Positions 4,527-49,158 of a stretch of DNA of 49,158 nucleotides are shown here, piece after piece. Under the pieces are notes generated by a model that was not told the DNA's origin, searched no databases, and saw only the letters and a program-made list of their open reading frames with translations. Where the stretch lies: NCBI RefSeq assembly GCF_001434815.1, contig NZ_AZDU01000010.1:1-49158 (forward strand), read 5' to 3'. A program made the position numbers and the translations under genes. Source of the stretch: Lactobacillus equicursoris DSM 19284 = JCM 14600 = CIP 110162. Its GTDB lineage: Bacteria > Bacillota > Bacilli > Lactobacillales > Lactobacillaceae. Numbering within the stretch: the stretch's first letter is position 1; each line of letters opens with the position of its first letter.

Positions 4527-5648
4527 TTGGTAGACCTTTCAGAAGAGGTTAAGGGGAATGATGGTGTGGTAGATGGGCTCCCTATCCTAACTATTTCTGC
4601 TGCAAATGGTTGGATGAATCAAAAAGATAGATTTTCTCAAGTCATCGCAGGAAGCGAATTGAAGAAATATACTTTACTAAAAAAAGGAGAACTTTCATAT
4701 AATCACGGCAATTCTAAACTAGCTAAATTCGGTGCCGTCTTTGAACTTGATTCATATAAAGAGGCTTTAGTGCCTAGAGTTTATCACAGCTTTAAAATGG
4801 TCAATGGAAACAGTCCATCCTTTATTGAGTATTTATTCGCTACTAAGCGTCCAGATCGTGAGCTTTCAAAGCTAATTACATCTGGTGCTCGAATGGACGG
4901 GTTACTCAACATAAATAAGAAAGACTTTTTTGGTATAAAGCTAAAAGTACCTACACCTCAAGAACAAACAAAAATATCAAAACTTCTGAGAGGACTAGAT
5001 CGCACTATTACCTTGCATGAGGAAAAGCAGAGACAGCTAGAACAGCTTAAAAAGGCACTTCTACAGAAGATGTTTGCTGATAAAAAGGAATATCCTGAGC
5101 TTAGGTTTAATGGATTTAGTGATAGTTGGAATAAAAACAAAGTTTCCGAGTTATTTACAATTACACGGGGATATGTACTTCCGGCAAAAGATACTAAGCC
5201 TACCCCAGAAGGAGACTATTGTTATCCTGTATATTCGTCTCAGACAGCACAAAATGGTCTCATGGGATACTACAACAAATATCTATATAAAGACGCAATC
5301 ACCTGGACAACCGATGGTGCTAATGCAGGAACAGTCAGATTTAGAACGGGAAAATTTTATTGTACAAATGTTTGCGGAGTTCTCTTAACTAAGAAAGCAA
5401 AAGCATCTGAAATGATAGCAATGGCTTTGAATAAAGTGACTAAGAAATACGTTTCGTATGTTGGTAATCCCAAGCTGATGAATAATGTGATGGGAGAAAT
5501 CGTAATCTCCTTGCCTACAAATACTGAAGAGCAGAACAATTTGTCTTTTCTCTTTAATAATCTAGAAAGAGCTATTATACTTACCGAGCATAAGATTGAA
5601 CAACTAAAATCCCTCAAGCAAGCCCTCTTACAACAAATGTTCATTTAA
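4527..5648 (+). CDS. hsdS': Headless HsdS specificity cassette (silent hsdS')
   Basis: 373 residues in frame from a poor TTG start; the homologous frame really begins at 4476 and is closed upstream by TAA at 4473-4475. It contains two target-recognition domains (about residues 1-135 and 195-330), each followed by the conserved helix (LHEEKQRQLEQLKKALLQ and IEQLKSLKQALLQQMFI). What is missing is the N-terminal start and the leader KLRFKGFTDD seen in the active hsdS at 7862. No ribosome site or promoter is visible, so it should be silent until recombination joins it to the expressed head. It faces the active hsdS across the recombinase gene. The second domain differs in sequence from that of hsdS, so inversion would change DNA specificity. 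Confidence 0.85.
   Translation: MVDLSEEVKGNDGVVDGLPILTISAANGWMNQKDRFSQVIAGSELKKYTLLKKGELSYNHGNSKLAKFGAVFELDSYKEALVPRVYHSFKMVNGNSPSFIEYLFATKRPDRELSKLITSGARMDGLLNINKKDFFGIKLKVPTPQEQTKISKLLRGLDRTITLHEEKQRQLEQLKKALLQKMFADKKEYPELRFNGFSDSWNKNKVSELFTITRGYVLPAKDTKPTPEGDYCYPVYSSQTAQNGLMGYYNKYLYKDAITWTTDGANAGTVRFRTGKFYCTNVCGVLLTKKAKASEMIAMALNKVTKKYVSYVGNPKLMNNVMGEIVISLPTNTEEQNNLSFLFNNLERAIILTEHKIEQLKSLKQALLQQMFI
5064..5083 (+). repeat. Central hsdS recombination repeat, copy in hsdS'
   Basis: CAGAAGATGTTTGCTGATAA encodes the conserved QKMFADK linker between the two recognition domains. The same 20 bp occur inverted at 7264-7283. Nearby blocks are also shared (an 18-bp block starting TTGCATGAGG and a 14-bp block starting CTAGAACAGC), with a few mismatches between. 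Confidence 0.8.
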
Positions 5649-15081: not shown

Positions 15082-15276
15082 CCTCCTTTGTATATCATCT
15101 AGATTAAACCGTGTCCCCTTTCTATATCATCTAGATCAAACCATGTCCCCTTTCTATATCATCTGCGTTCAAAAATAGTCACTCTCGAAGGTAGTTAATA
15201 TACTCGGAAGACTTTTTCCCAGCTAGATGATACACAAAGAAGACCTCCGTCCAGCTAGATAATATACAAAGGAGAC
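15082..15276. repeat. Dyad-symmetric array of 32-bp repeats (island A)
   Basis: TATATCATCTAG-type sites start at 15091, 15123 and 15155 (period 32). Their inverse (CTAGATgATATA) starts at 15191, 15223 and 15255 (period 32). All three forward/reverse pairs share one centre at 15178.5. About 20 nt of each unit are conserved (GTCyyCTTTsTrTATyATCTAG); the other 10-12 nt vary. The outer copies are best preserved. The array lies between the converging Fic and arsC genes and encodes no protein. It could be a protein-binding array or one long RNA hairpin. Confidence 0.85.
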
Positions 15277-16794: not shown

Positions 16795-16920
16795 GGGGCA
16801 CGGACCTACCCAAAATCGCCATGGCTACGTTGTCAGGGGGCACGGACCTATCCAAAATCACCATGGCTACGTTGTCAGGGGGCACGAACCTAACCAAAAC
16901 GACCATGGCTACGTTGCCAG
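16795..16920. repeat. Tandem 42-bp repeat, three copies (island C)
   Basis: GGGGCACGGACC-type units start at 16795, 16837 and 16879, and a partial fourth at 16921: an exact 42-bp period. The most constant parts are GGGGGCACG and CCATGGCTACGTTGTCAG. Because 42 is divisible by 3, reading frames stay open through the array on both strands, but I see no ribosome site, so those frames are probably not genes. A weak match (GATGGCTACGGTCAATCC) lies near 17496. Confidence 0.85.
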
Positions 16921-16940
16921 GGGGCTACCGCCAAACAAGA

Positions 16941-16990: not shown

Positions 16991-17386
16991 TTATTCTTCA
17001 ACAGTCGTTGAAACTTGTGGCACGCGTGGGTAAGCTGGCGCTGGATCAGCAACTCTTGGGAACGTGACCTTTTTAGCAAGAGACTTCTTAGTTGATGAAC
17101 TAGTCTTCTTTGATGATGACTTTGCGGCGGCCTTTTTCACAGTCTTCTTAGCAGCCTTCTTCTTAGCTACCTTTTTCACAGTCTTCTTAGCAGCCTTCTT
17201 CTTGGCTACCTTTTTGACTGACTTCTTAGCAGCCTTCTTCTTAGCTACCTTCTTAACTGACTTCTTGGCCTTCTTAGTAGCTGCACTAACCGTAGCAGTT
17301 TGGGTTGGCAAAGCGGCACCTACGCCCGCAGCCAAAGTAGCAGCAACAGCAATATTTGCAAGAATTTTAATTACTTTAGTCATCAT
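16991..17386 (-). CDS. Secreted Lys/Ala-rich repeat protein (histone H1-like)
   Basis: 131 residues from the MMTKVIKIL start; a longer frame to 17413 lacks a better ribosome site. A signal peptide (to about VSA/AT) precedes a highly basic region built from a 13-residue unit, KKSVKKVAKKKAA, repeated three to four times (39-bp period), then a Ser-rich linker and a Pro-rich tail (FPRVADPAPAYPRVPQV). The repeats resemble histone H1 tails or the basic repeats of bacterial surface adhesins. With a signal peptide it is likely to be exported and to bind the anionic wall, teichoic acid or extracellular DNA. It has no sortase motif. Function is inferred only from composition. Confidence 0.75.
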   Translation of the reverse strand: MMTKVIKILANIAVAATLAAGVGAALPTQTATVSAATKKAKKSVKKVAKKKAAKKSVKKVAKKKAAKKTVKKVAKKKAAKKTVKKAAAKSSSKKTSSSTKKSLAKKVTFPRVADPAPAYPRVPQVSTTVEE

Positions 17387-48101: not shown

Positions 48102-48119
48102 TTTTTCTACCTCCTTATG

Positions 48120-48255
48120 AAAAAAAGAGACTCACGTGCCCCGGCTTAGCCGCTGGCACATAAGTCTCACTAATTAAGACAAGCCCAGAAGGCGCAGTGC
48201 CTTCGGCTGTTGGTCTTGTCGCAAGTCTGGTTAGGCTTGCCGTTACTCCCTTATG
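48120..48255 (-). promoter_or_regulatory. yybP-ykoY (Mn2+) riboswitch with terminator
   Basis: On the minus strand CATAAGGGAGTAACGGCAAG opens the aptamer and GAGACTTATG closes it (48159-48168), so P1 is CATAAG/CTTATG flanked by GGGAGTA and GAGA, the family hallmark. The segment GAGACTTATGTGCC (48155-48168) also pairs fully, with two G-U, with GGCACGTGAGTCTC (48127-48140), which is followed by TTTTTTT. P1 and terminator are mutually exclusive: with Mn2+ bound, P1 forms and the ATPase is transcribed, an ON switch. Confidence 0.82.
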
Positions 48256-48278
48256 ATTGAATAATCGTTTTCATCCTT

Positions 48279-48346: not shown

Positions 48347-48743
48347 GGTTGAGGTGGCGATCATTTTGAGCAGAGCATCGCTTCGGTTGAGATCATTTTG
48401 AGCCTTTTTTAAAAAATAATTTTTCAACTTCCCAAAAATTACTCAACCGTAATTCTTGCTGCACACGAATTTACTCAACTGCGGAAAATGCTGCTCACAA
48501 ACTTACTCAACCAAACCCAGACCATGCACAAAAACTATGTCAACTAGCAAATTGACTGCACACAAGTTTACTCAAGTAAAGAAAAAGCTGCTCACGAACT
48601 TACTCAACTAAGGTCGATCGGCTGGCAGTTGAGTAAGTTTTGGGCCACAGTTTTGCTTACTTGAGTATGATTGTGTGCACGCTTTTTTAAAAAAGGACCA
48701 TAGTTGAGTAAATTTTGGGCAGCAACGCCTATTACTTGAGTCA
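48347..48743. repeat. 32-bp-period array with inverted half (island B)
   Basis: TTACTCAAC-type sites start at 48439, 48471, 48503, 48536, 48568 and 48600 (steps 32, 32, 33, 32, 32). Inverse sites (GTTGAGTAA) start at 48628, 48660, 48703 and 48735 (steps 32, 43, 32). The two inner pairs share the centre 48618; AACTTACTCAACT (48597-48609) and its exact inverse (48627-48639) face each other. At the left end GATCATTTTGAGC repeats at 48359 and 48391, also 32 bp apart. A second element, GCTGCaCACgAA, lies between sites. No gene is visible. Confidence 0.85.
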
Positions 48744-48767
48744 GTTTGTGTGCATCCCTCCCCCAGT

Positions 48768-49158
48768 TTGACTCAACCGGGTCTGATTTGCCCTTTTTTC
48801 GCCCCCAAGTTGACTCAACCGGGCCGCTTTTGCAGCTTTTTTTGCCCCCAAGTTGACTCAACCGAATCCGATTTGCTGCTTTTTTGCCCCCATTTTGACT
48901 CAACCGAACCTGGTTTGCCGCTTTTTTGCCCCCATTTTGACTCAACCGGATCCGATTTGCTGCTTTTTGGCCCCCATTTTGACTCAACCGGACTGTTTTT
49001 GCCGCTTTTTTGCCCCCAAGTTGACTCAACCGAACCCAGTTTGCCGCTTTTTTGCCCCCAAGTTGACTCAACCGGACCGCTTTTTCCCTTTTTTTGCCCC
49101 CGAGTTGACTCAACCGGATCCGGTTTACCGCTTTTTTGCCCCCATTTTGACTCAACCG
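48768..49158. repeat. 42-bp tandem repeat, ten copies, running off the window (island D)
   Basis: TTGACTCAACCG starts at 48768, 48810, 48853, 48895, 48937, 48979, 49021, 49063, 49105 and 49147: period 42 with a single step of 43. The unit ends in TTTTTTGCCCCCAAG or ...CCCCCATT. It shares the core ACTCAAC with the neighbouring 32-bp array. The period keeps a minus-strand frame open (LGGKKAANRIRLSQ-like), but it has no start signal inside the window. The array continues past position 49158. Confidence 0.9.

Follow-up and report, generated by a model that had tools for sequence, protein, structure and literature searches.

Phased repeat arrays dispersed in Lactobacillus equicursoris as putative iteron-like sites of a chromosomal NERD-Rep3 protein family

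A contig of Lactobacillus equicursoris DSM 19284 ends in an array of short directional repeats ahead of a P-type ATPase gene, and the regularity of these repeats raises the question of what reads them. The window, which is the whole 49,158-nucleotide stretch that was analysed (NZ_AZDU01000010.1), holds the heptamer ACTCAAC 21 times against 5.76 expected, a count reached by none of 100 shuffles, and 16 of these exact copies lie within 48441-49156. The original prediction placed about ten copies of this core at 32-bp steps and about ten more at 42-bp steps, all on one face of the helix, and offered cooperative binding of one protein or the iterons of a replicon as explanations. The array is probably an iteron-like cluster of binding sites for a chromosomal family of proteins, here called NERD-Rep3, that join a nuclease-type domain to a plasmid-type initiator.

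The predicted regular array is present in the first block, but it is not one core repeated ten times at 32 bp. Its six forward cores (48441, 48473, 48505, 48538, 48570, and 48602) follow each other in steps of 32, 32, 33, 32, and 32 bp, and its four inverted cores (48628, 48660, 48703, and 48735) in steps of 32, 43, and 32 bp, an alternation that amounts to a 75-bp unit. The exact heptamer occupies six of these ten sites and variants the other four: 48538 ends TGTCAAC, 48570 reads ACTCAAG, and 48660 and 48735 read CTTGAG. The second block agrees with what was predicted, having ten forward cores (48771, 48813, 48856, 48898, 48940, 48982, 49024, 49066, 49108, and 49150) separated by nine steps that are all 42 bp save one of 43. 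TRF reports it at 48760-49158 with a period of 42, 9.5 copies, and a score of 414. The array runs to the last base of the window because the contig ends there.

Judged by its letters, the array is a composite of two repeat families. Family B (module 1) contributes a plus-strand forward arm of six ~20-bp sites at 32/33-bp steps (48422..48613; unit about TGCTCACAAACTTACTCAACTA plus ~10 bp), which recurs at other loci, and a minus-strand inverted arm with the four sites of the 75-bp double unit (48624..48759). Family A (module 2) contributes the plus-strand forward arm of ten sites at 42/43 bp that the contig end cuts off (48760..49158; unit GCCCCCAAGTTGACTCAACCGG plus ~20 bp). The outer edge of the array carries two degenerate minus-strand copies of a ~20-bp motif, TGCNCAAAANNATNTCAACY, at 48353-48372 and 48385-48404, with 2 and 1 mismatches; this motif matches the window three times, the third time within the array, against 0.19 expected. 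A further array, of family D (CCATGGCTACGT....AGGGGGC) and gene-less, lies on the plus strand at 16795..16925 (TRF period 42, 3.1 copies). Positions 16809-16924 match the array that adjoins the family D gene of contig C130 (E 7.7e-15), and another gene-less family D array is found at C104:26072-26227. The window also contains a 32-bp tandem repeat of unrelated sequence at 15085-15164 (2.5 copies, 93% match), which may be coding, and a 39-bp tandem repeat at 17131-17266 (3.5 copies), whose unit is a multiple of 3.

Such arrays are widespread in the same genome. The window array finds 90 BLAST matches there, and the fetched loci hold at least 40 array stretches covering 24,663 bases, or 1.2% of the 2,052,598-base assembly; these 40 were bounded by hand, with the arrays at C98, C104:26072, C110:22800, C115, C130, and C143 left out. 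Since 21 of the 40 touch a contig end, arrays may account for many of the breaks in this assembly. The repeat unit consists of a conserved ~20-bp directional motif in a length of ~3 or 4 helical turns, and the arms often point at each other. In module 1, 32-bp forward units are followed by a 26-bp junction and then by inverted 75-bp (32+43) units, and both the 75-bp steps and the junction are found again at other loci. In module 2, forward 42-bp units face inverted 42-bp units with the core GTATGTCAACC. The order seen in the window, module 1 and then one arm of module 2, is present at several other loci. A search for lone copies with a generic 20-bp motif returned 29 matches, mostly in or at arrays, against 2 for the reversed control. 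By eye, module 1 often starts with TGCACA and ends with TGTGCA, many arrays start right behind a terminator-like hairpin, and no target-site duplication was recognised at the arrays; filled and empty sites are too divergent to place the ends of an element.

With at least 40 stretches in one genome, the window array is not supported as the origin of a lone replicon. The idea of replicon iterons holds in the analogy with iterons and in the Rep3-type genes beside arrays, and fails as a single origin. The window array DNA has no match in the plasmid, phage, and viral contig collections, in which the records closest to the window's genome are possibly absent, and on that result the array DNA was judged not to derive from a phage or plasmid. 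A CRISPR array was rejected as well, the spacers being mutually related and recurring within arrays. Elsewhere in the genome, further 42-bp pairs with a family C-like core (TTACTCAACT) occur at C98:35120-35213 and C110:22800-22851, and DnaA box-like sequences (TTATCCACA) were noticed by eye behind a module 1 array on contig C123 (L039, ~4770-4900).

The arrays are connected with a protein by the genes that adjoin some of them. At L014:11341-12390 the array adjoins a 535-aa ORF at L014:12537-14144 with NERD (E 5.7e-14) and Rep3_N (4.4e-12) domains. Full-length homologues within the genus number four in the window's own genome, two in the relative G041, and two in the relative G080, with none elsewhere, and 13 other genomes of the genus have partial matches to the NERD or the Rep3 part. 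All eight full-length genes have arrays beside them, seven within about 0.2 kb; at L137 a transposase ORF stands between array and gene. Sequence comparison sorts the arrays into six motif families, A to F, each found beside its own paralogous gene; many further arrays are gene-less. The array lies beside the gene in families A (L014 and L137, period 42), E (L171, period 31), and F (L174 and L175, period 42), and on both sides of it in families B (L143, period 32), C (L173, period 42), and D (L172, period 42). The six periods correspond to 2.95 to 4.0 helical turns. Because the families share ancestry through their genes, the common period does not count as six independent observations, and it may be inherited. 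The distinct motif of each paralogue implies private recognition; the core TTTACTCAACTA is common to families B and C. The window's own genome has genes of families A, C, D, and E. It holds many arrays of family B, but the L143 type of gene was not found in it, so that these arrays either lack a reader or are served by a paralogue. In two genomes the gene ahead of L174 and L175 is the same transporter-like one. Some kilobases from the family F gene, L175 also has tandem repeats of 26 bp (perfect) and 27 bp (near-perfect), at 686-763 and 2026-2119.

Genes with only one of the two domains provide a comparison. Twelve loci carry NERD only, and in none of the nine scanned is there a 30-45-bp array within about 1.5 kb. 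Three loci with Rep3 alone gave differing results: repeats of 22 bp at one, repeats of 31 bp at another, and no repeats at the third. The 31-bp case is L168 (G062:C18), where a tandem repeat of 2.7 copies stands close to a Rep3-type gene without a full NERD-Rep3 match; phased repeats thus also occur away from the fusion.

Pfam reports NERD in all eight full-length proteins, Rep3_N (WH1) above cut-off in seven (L173 being the exception), and Rep3_C (WH2) in four, above cut-off in two. Identity to the first protein ranges from 39 to 97%, and the alignment extends over the whole length except in L172, which is without the last ~40 columns. Residues D130, E143, and K145 are invariant in all eight and presumably form the D...ExK motif of PD-(D/E)XK nucleases, with a catalytic role. 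The dN/dS ratio is 0.097 for the L174/L175 pair and 0.22 for L014/L137. A single-sequence structural model of 495 of the 535 residues has a mean pLDDT of 46.7, is better over 306-495, and does not cover the NERD half. Modelled residues 309-495 match mini-F RepE-DNA complexes with Z up to 11.6 at an rmsd of ~12-13 over some 160-176 residues, which implies that the two domains are packed differently. The modelled Rep3 part also matches pi-iteron (Z 10.4), the WH1 domain of pPS10 RepA (Z 8.6, rmsd 3.2), and domains of RctB (Z 7.9). As modelled, the Rep part of NERD-Rep3 resembles an iteron-binding initiator of the Rep3, RepE-like type.

Sequence collections place the protein close to plasmid initiators in its Rep3 part. 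In the plasmid collection 629 records match it, with no match extending over more than 80% of the query, and the best 20 listed all fall in the Rep3 part; the plasmid relatives pSMB74 and pRV500 carry 22-bp iterons directly ahead of rep. The protein has no match in the phage and viral contig collections, and a PDB sequence search with it gave nothing useful. For six of the proteins PADLOC found no defence family and NCBIfam gave sub-cut-off matches only, the best being RepM (E 7.9e-6, L143 protein), and membership of a known defence family was rejected on these results.

Arrays and genes have a similar, narrow distribution. The genus search covered 75 genomes, own included, with one pattern for the 42-type pair and one for the 32-type pair. 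The 42-type pattern is found in two genomes (own and G041) and the 32-type pattern in four (own, G080 with 22 matches, G070 with 2, and G063 with 1), the single match in G063 being taken as chance and that genome counted as array-less. Arrays are present in 4 of the 75 (own, G041, G080, and G070), and the other 71 have none by both patterns. The full-length protein occurs in three of the four array-bearing genomes and in none of the 71 array-less ones (Fisher 5.9e-5, among relatives that are not independent); G070 has arrays yet no gene match in a genome that is 67% complete. Beyond the genus, no NERD-Rep3 passed E 1e-50 in a sample of 396 other members of the family or E 1e-40 in a sample of 397 other members of the phylum, in searches that scored three of five candidates of the own genome, so that its fourth copy was not listed. 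For four arrays the flanking genes identify an orthologue (L012-L136, L010-L145, L032-L147, and L026-L143). The original prediction would have been damaged by freely drifting spacing; in these four pairs the spacing is constant, with steps of 32, 42, and 25 retained, and it is the copy number that varies. The core spacings in this comparison include steps broken up where pattern matches overlap, and the G041 assembly contributes a single N.

The locus in the window can be compared with the same two relatives. The window array sits 246 bp upstream of the start codon of the P-type ATPase gene, to which the original prediction linked it. Between the ATPase leader and nadE, G041 and G080 have no array, the distance from the leader block to the end of nadE being 155 bp in G041 and 67 bp in G080. 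The leader itself (window 48111-48256) is conserved, with 78% identity in G041 and 75% in G080. In the window's own genome nadE lies at C115:14342-15132 (Pfam NAD_synthase), and contig C115 ends in a terminator-like hairpin followed by 42-bp units; synteny with the two relatives indicates that the other end of the window array is probably there. As both relatives are array-less at this locus, the array is most simply read as an insertion between nadE and the ATPase gene, the alternative being loss in both relatives, and it is unlikely to serve the ATPase. The predicted Mn2+ riboswitch ahead of the ATPase was not recovered either: Rfam reports no yybP-ykoY element at the leader even at E up to 5, and a riboswitch or other known RNA was rejected on the Rfam results.

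Several loci carry signs of spread. In G080 the L143 gene lies between two arrays, and at L026 in the window's own genome a single array has the same outer ends, so recombination between arrays can yield a gene-less array, or else the gene entered between. In G041 an array occurs at three places together with 287-418 bp of L014-type flank; the copied flanks end at differing points, a pattern as compatible with segmental duplication as with transposition. An Rfam match, RF03066 (COG3610-DE RNA), adjoins the family A array at L014:11151-11267 and lies within the flank copied with the arrays at the three G041 places (L135, L137, and L138). The same genome has one DDE-type ORF copied at three fetched loci and an rve-type ORF beside the L135 array. 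A transposase as the common neighbour of arrays was rejected, since ordinary genes adjoin arrays elsewhere in the few checked. The family A gene of G041 is 94% identical in DNA to that at L014, against 72-85% for the flanks of an orthologous array, 80% for the ATPase region, and 82% for nadE, a difference that suggests horizontal movement.

RctB, the initiator of Vibrio chromosome 2, drives a replicon, and its sites on the chromosome are dispersed. To our knowledge it lacks a NERD domain, and long dispersed arrays of the kind described here are not associated with it. It is a plasmid-type initiator with more than one kind of chromosomal site, as far as the available text reports (PMC5395669). 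The iteron plasmids of the Rep_3 type (F RepE, pPS10 RepA, R6K pi; pSMB74, pRV500) are closer in layout, with a WH1-WH2 protein beside phased ~20-bp direct repeats. The proteins described here likewise have WH1 and WH2 domains, by Pfam and by the RepE fold match, and phased direct repeats at 31, 32, or 42 bp beside all eight genes. They differ from the plasmid systems in being chromosomal, in having several paralogues with their own motifs, in the 31/32/42-bp spacing, in arms of both orientations, in the N-terminal NERD domain, and in dozens of gene-less arrays. The iterons of pSMB74 and pRV500 are 22 bp apart, or 2 turns, in contrast to 3 or 4 turns here.

Other repeat families share part of this organization. 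STAR elements of staphylococci are interspersed intergenic direct repeats with a conserved motif, locus-specific spacers, and variable copy number, according to the accessible part of their description (PMC3532100), and the arrays resemble them in being dispersed between genes with a motif that is kept and spacers that vary. The same text gives STAR a 14-bp unit, spacers of at least 40 bp, and the consensus T(G/A/T)TGTTG(G/T)GGCCC(C/A), and the portion available describes no inverted arm or linked initiator gene (PMC3532100); the arrays have a different motif and do have inverted arms. REP/BIME sequences with RAYT are also extragenic clusters in both orientations with an associated gene family, but REPs are palindromes tied to tyrosine transposases in the available text (PMC2817692), whereas the units here are directional, stand in inverted blocks, and accompany a Rep3-NERD protein. 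The family A core GTTGACTCAAC is palindromic; the family A unit as a whole is not. The proteins described here resemble NERD-domain proteins in having a NERD domain with an invariant D...ExK, and three NERD-only proteins of congeners that were checked with Pfam have no Rep3 domain. A NERD-domain nuclease is also mentioned in an archaeal casposon in the text available (PMC6563490).

Cooperative binding of one protein on one DNA face, as originally proposed, is the best analogy for these arrays, with six families at ~3- or 4-turn spacing (31, 32, and 42 bp). What we infer concerns binding, mobility, and function, both of the arrays and of NERD-Rep3. The Rep3 winged helices would bind the units cooperatively, as RepE and RepA bind iterons. 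Rep3 initiators such as pPS10 RepA bind to iterons in monomeric form and are able to bring two clusters of iterons together (handcuffing), on the evidence of the available text (PMC4857107), and by analogy NERD-Rep3 could load along an array on one helix face. Bound arms might then pair in cis or in trans, or undergo local unwinding. The parent element would be the gene-bearing form, and gene-less arrays could derive from it in two ways, through recombination of its flanking arrays, as with solo LTRs, or through copying in trans. The NERD nuclease perhaps helps the spread; a nuclease joined to an initiator is a plausible agent and no more. Selection on the chromosome would leave arrays mostly downstream of genes.

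The arrays could also be neutral or selfish intergenic repeats of the STAR or MITE kind that grow by slippage, with NERD-Rep3 genes that happen to lie in the same gene-poor, repeat-rich spots and whose proteins do not bind the arrays. We regard this as unlikely, even though the arrays are intergenic and dispersed and expand and contract as STAR elements do in the text available (PMC3532100), and a gene adjoins only 1 of the 40 counted stretches. Arrays at all eight genes, six motif families that follow the genes, and a gene distribution that tracks arrays over the 75 genus genomes speak against it, as does the constraint on the motif. Steps between same-strand neighbours of the exact heptamer are mostly 42 bp (136), followed by 32 (23), 75 (14), 33 (12, all from one locus), 74 (5), and a few others; a looser 42-type core gives exactly 42 in 315 of 327 steps. 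Motif and spacer were compared in the 37 arms that have four or more distinct units, with the anchor used for unit finding excluded; the difference per site is 0.144 in the motif and 0.294 in the spacer, the spacer exceeding the motif in 35. Sites and spacing are therefore kept and the spacer letters wander, although homogenisation by slippage also keeps a fixed unit length. Position in the genome bears on another reading, in which the arrays are host elements of chromosome architecture at converging transcription, bound by a general protein (gyrase, HU/IHF-like, or a condensin loader) as BIME-2 is with gyrase; this is more doubtful still. Both neighbours are known for 18 arrays, of which 10 are placed between convergent and 8 between tandem genes, with none between divergent ones, against 5, 71, and 29 of 105 other intergenic regions of the same loci (Fisher 6.2e-7 for convergent). 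Cluster L023:7119-7411, found with a loose regular expression and the sole one with divergent neighbours, is excluded from these counts because it overlaps an ORF. For 22 stretches there is one neighbour, which turns its 3' end to the array in 17 cases and its 5' end in 5, the window array included. Phased arms that point at each other and the BIME precedent with gyrase and IHF, in the part of that account available (PMC2817692), would suit such a role. The same position bias would result from promoter avoidance, however, and a general protein leaves unexplained both the six motifs, each with its own initiator paralogue, and the absence of arrays from 71 of the 75 genus genomes by two patterns.

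It is improbable that the arrays act as decoys against plasmids, the chromosomal iterons titrating incoming iteron plasmids or NERD cutting them. An intact nuclease motif and a Rep3 part related to plasmid initiators would fit a decoy, but the window array lacks a match in plasmid records, the six proteins tested belong to no PADLOC defence family, and the motifs are unlike both plasmid iterons that were read. An operator or boundary of the ATPase gene has very little to commend it beyond the short distance to the start codon: the orthologous regions of G041 and G080 keep the leader without the array, most arrays face 3' ends, and the same arrays stand at unrelated genes elsewhere. The operator was rejected on the array-less loci of the two relatives. 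No higher a probability attaches to an RNA hairpin or terminator element, a protein-coding repeat, or a transposon end. The arms are inverted, and since 42 is a multiple of 3, long frames across the array stay open. As hairpins, however, the arms would pair poorly: the core consensus is GTTGAC in one arm and GTATG in the other, and at L023, L035, and L041, where both arms are of the ATG type, the preceding letters differ. No Rfam family reaches gathering over the array. Units of 31 and 32 bp cannot be one reading frame, and Pfam finds no family in the 183-aa frame across the window array; on these two grounds a protein-coding repeat was rejected.

The iteron-like reading leaves room for a host function or a selfish one, and we think a selfish chromosomal element derived from a plasmid initiator the likelier. 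A fuller version of it, to which we give somewhat less than an even chance, is a new class of chromosomal selfish elements: NERD-Rep3 would read its own family of helically phased iteron arrays and, by cutting at them or initiating local DNA synthesis there, cause arrays to spread both alone and together with the gene. Private motifs would allow families that do not cross-react to coexist like plasmid incompatibility groups, and recombination would leave solo arrays. If correct, this would transfer the iteron and initiator logic of plasmids to the chromosome, as a dispersed system of several families that includes a nuclease, and would constitute either a principle of mobile elements that needs no classical transposase or a chromosome-pairing system made from plasmid parts. 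Several natural protein-motif pairs with strict phasing would make specificity, cooperativity, handcuffing, and mobility testable with purified parts. Rep3 initiators, iterons, and NERD are each known; a published description of these repeats, or of a chromosomal, dispersed, multi-family pairing of iterons with NERD-Rep3, was not found in a literature search that was thin on subscription papers.

A pattern scan of contigs returned 42 stretches. Of the 13 inspected, nine proved to be other repeats and four were arrays of the present kind, all in the record JAEDAG01 (JAEDAG010000001, -2, -8, and -10). This record bears the label Faecalicatena absiana YH-C36a; it seems to be genome G041 itself, which is placed in the window's genus, and is probably mislabelled.
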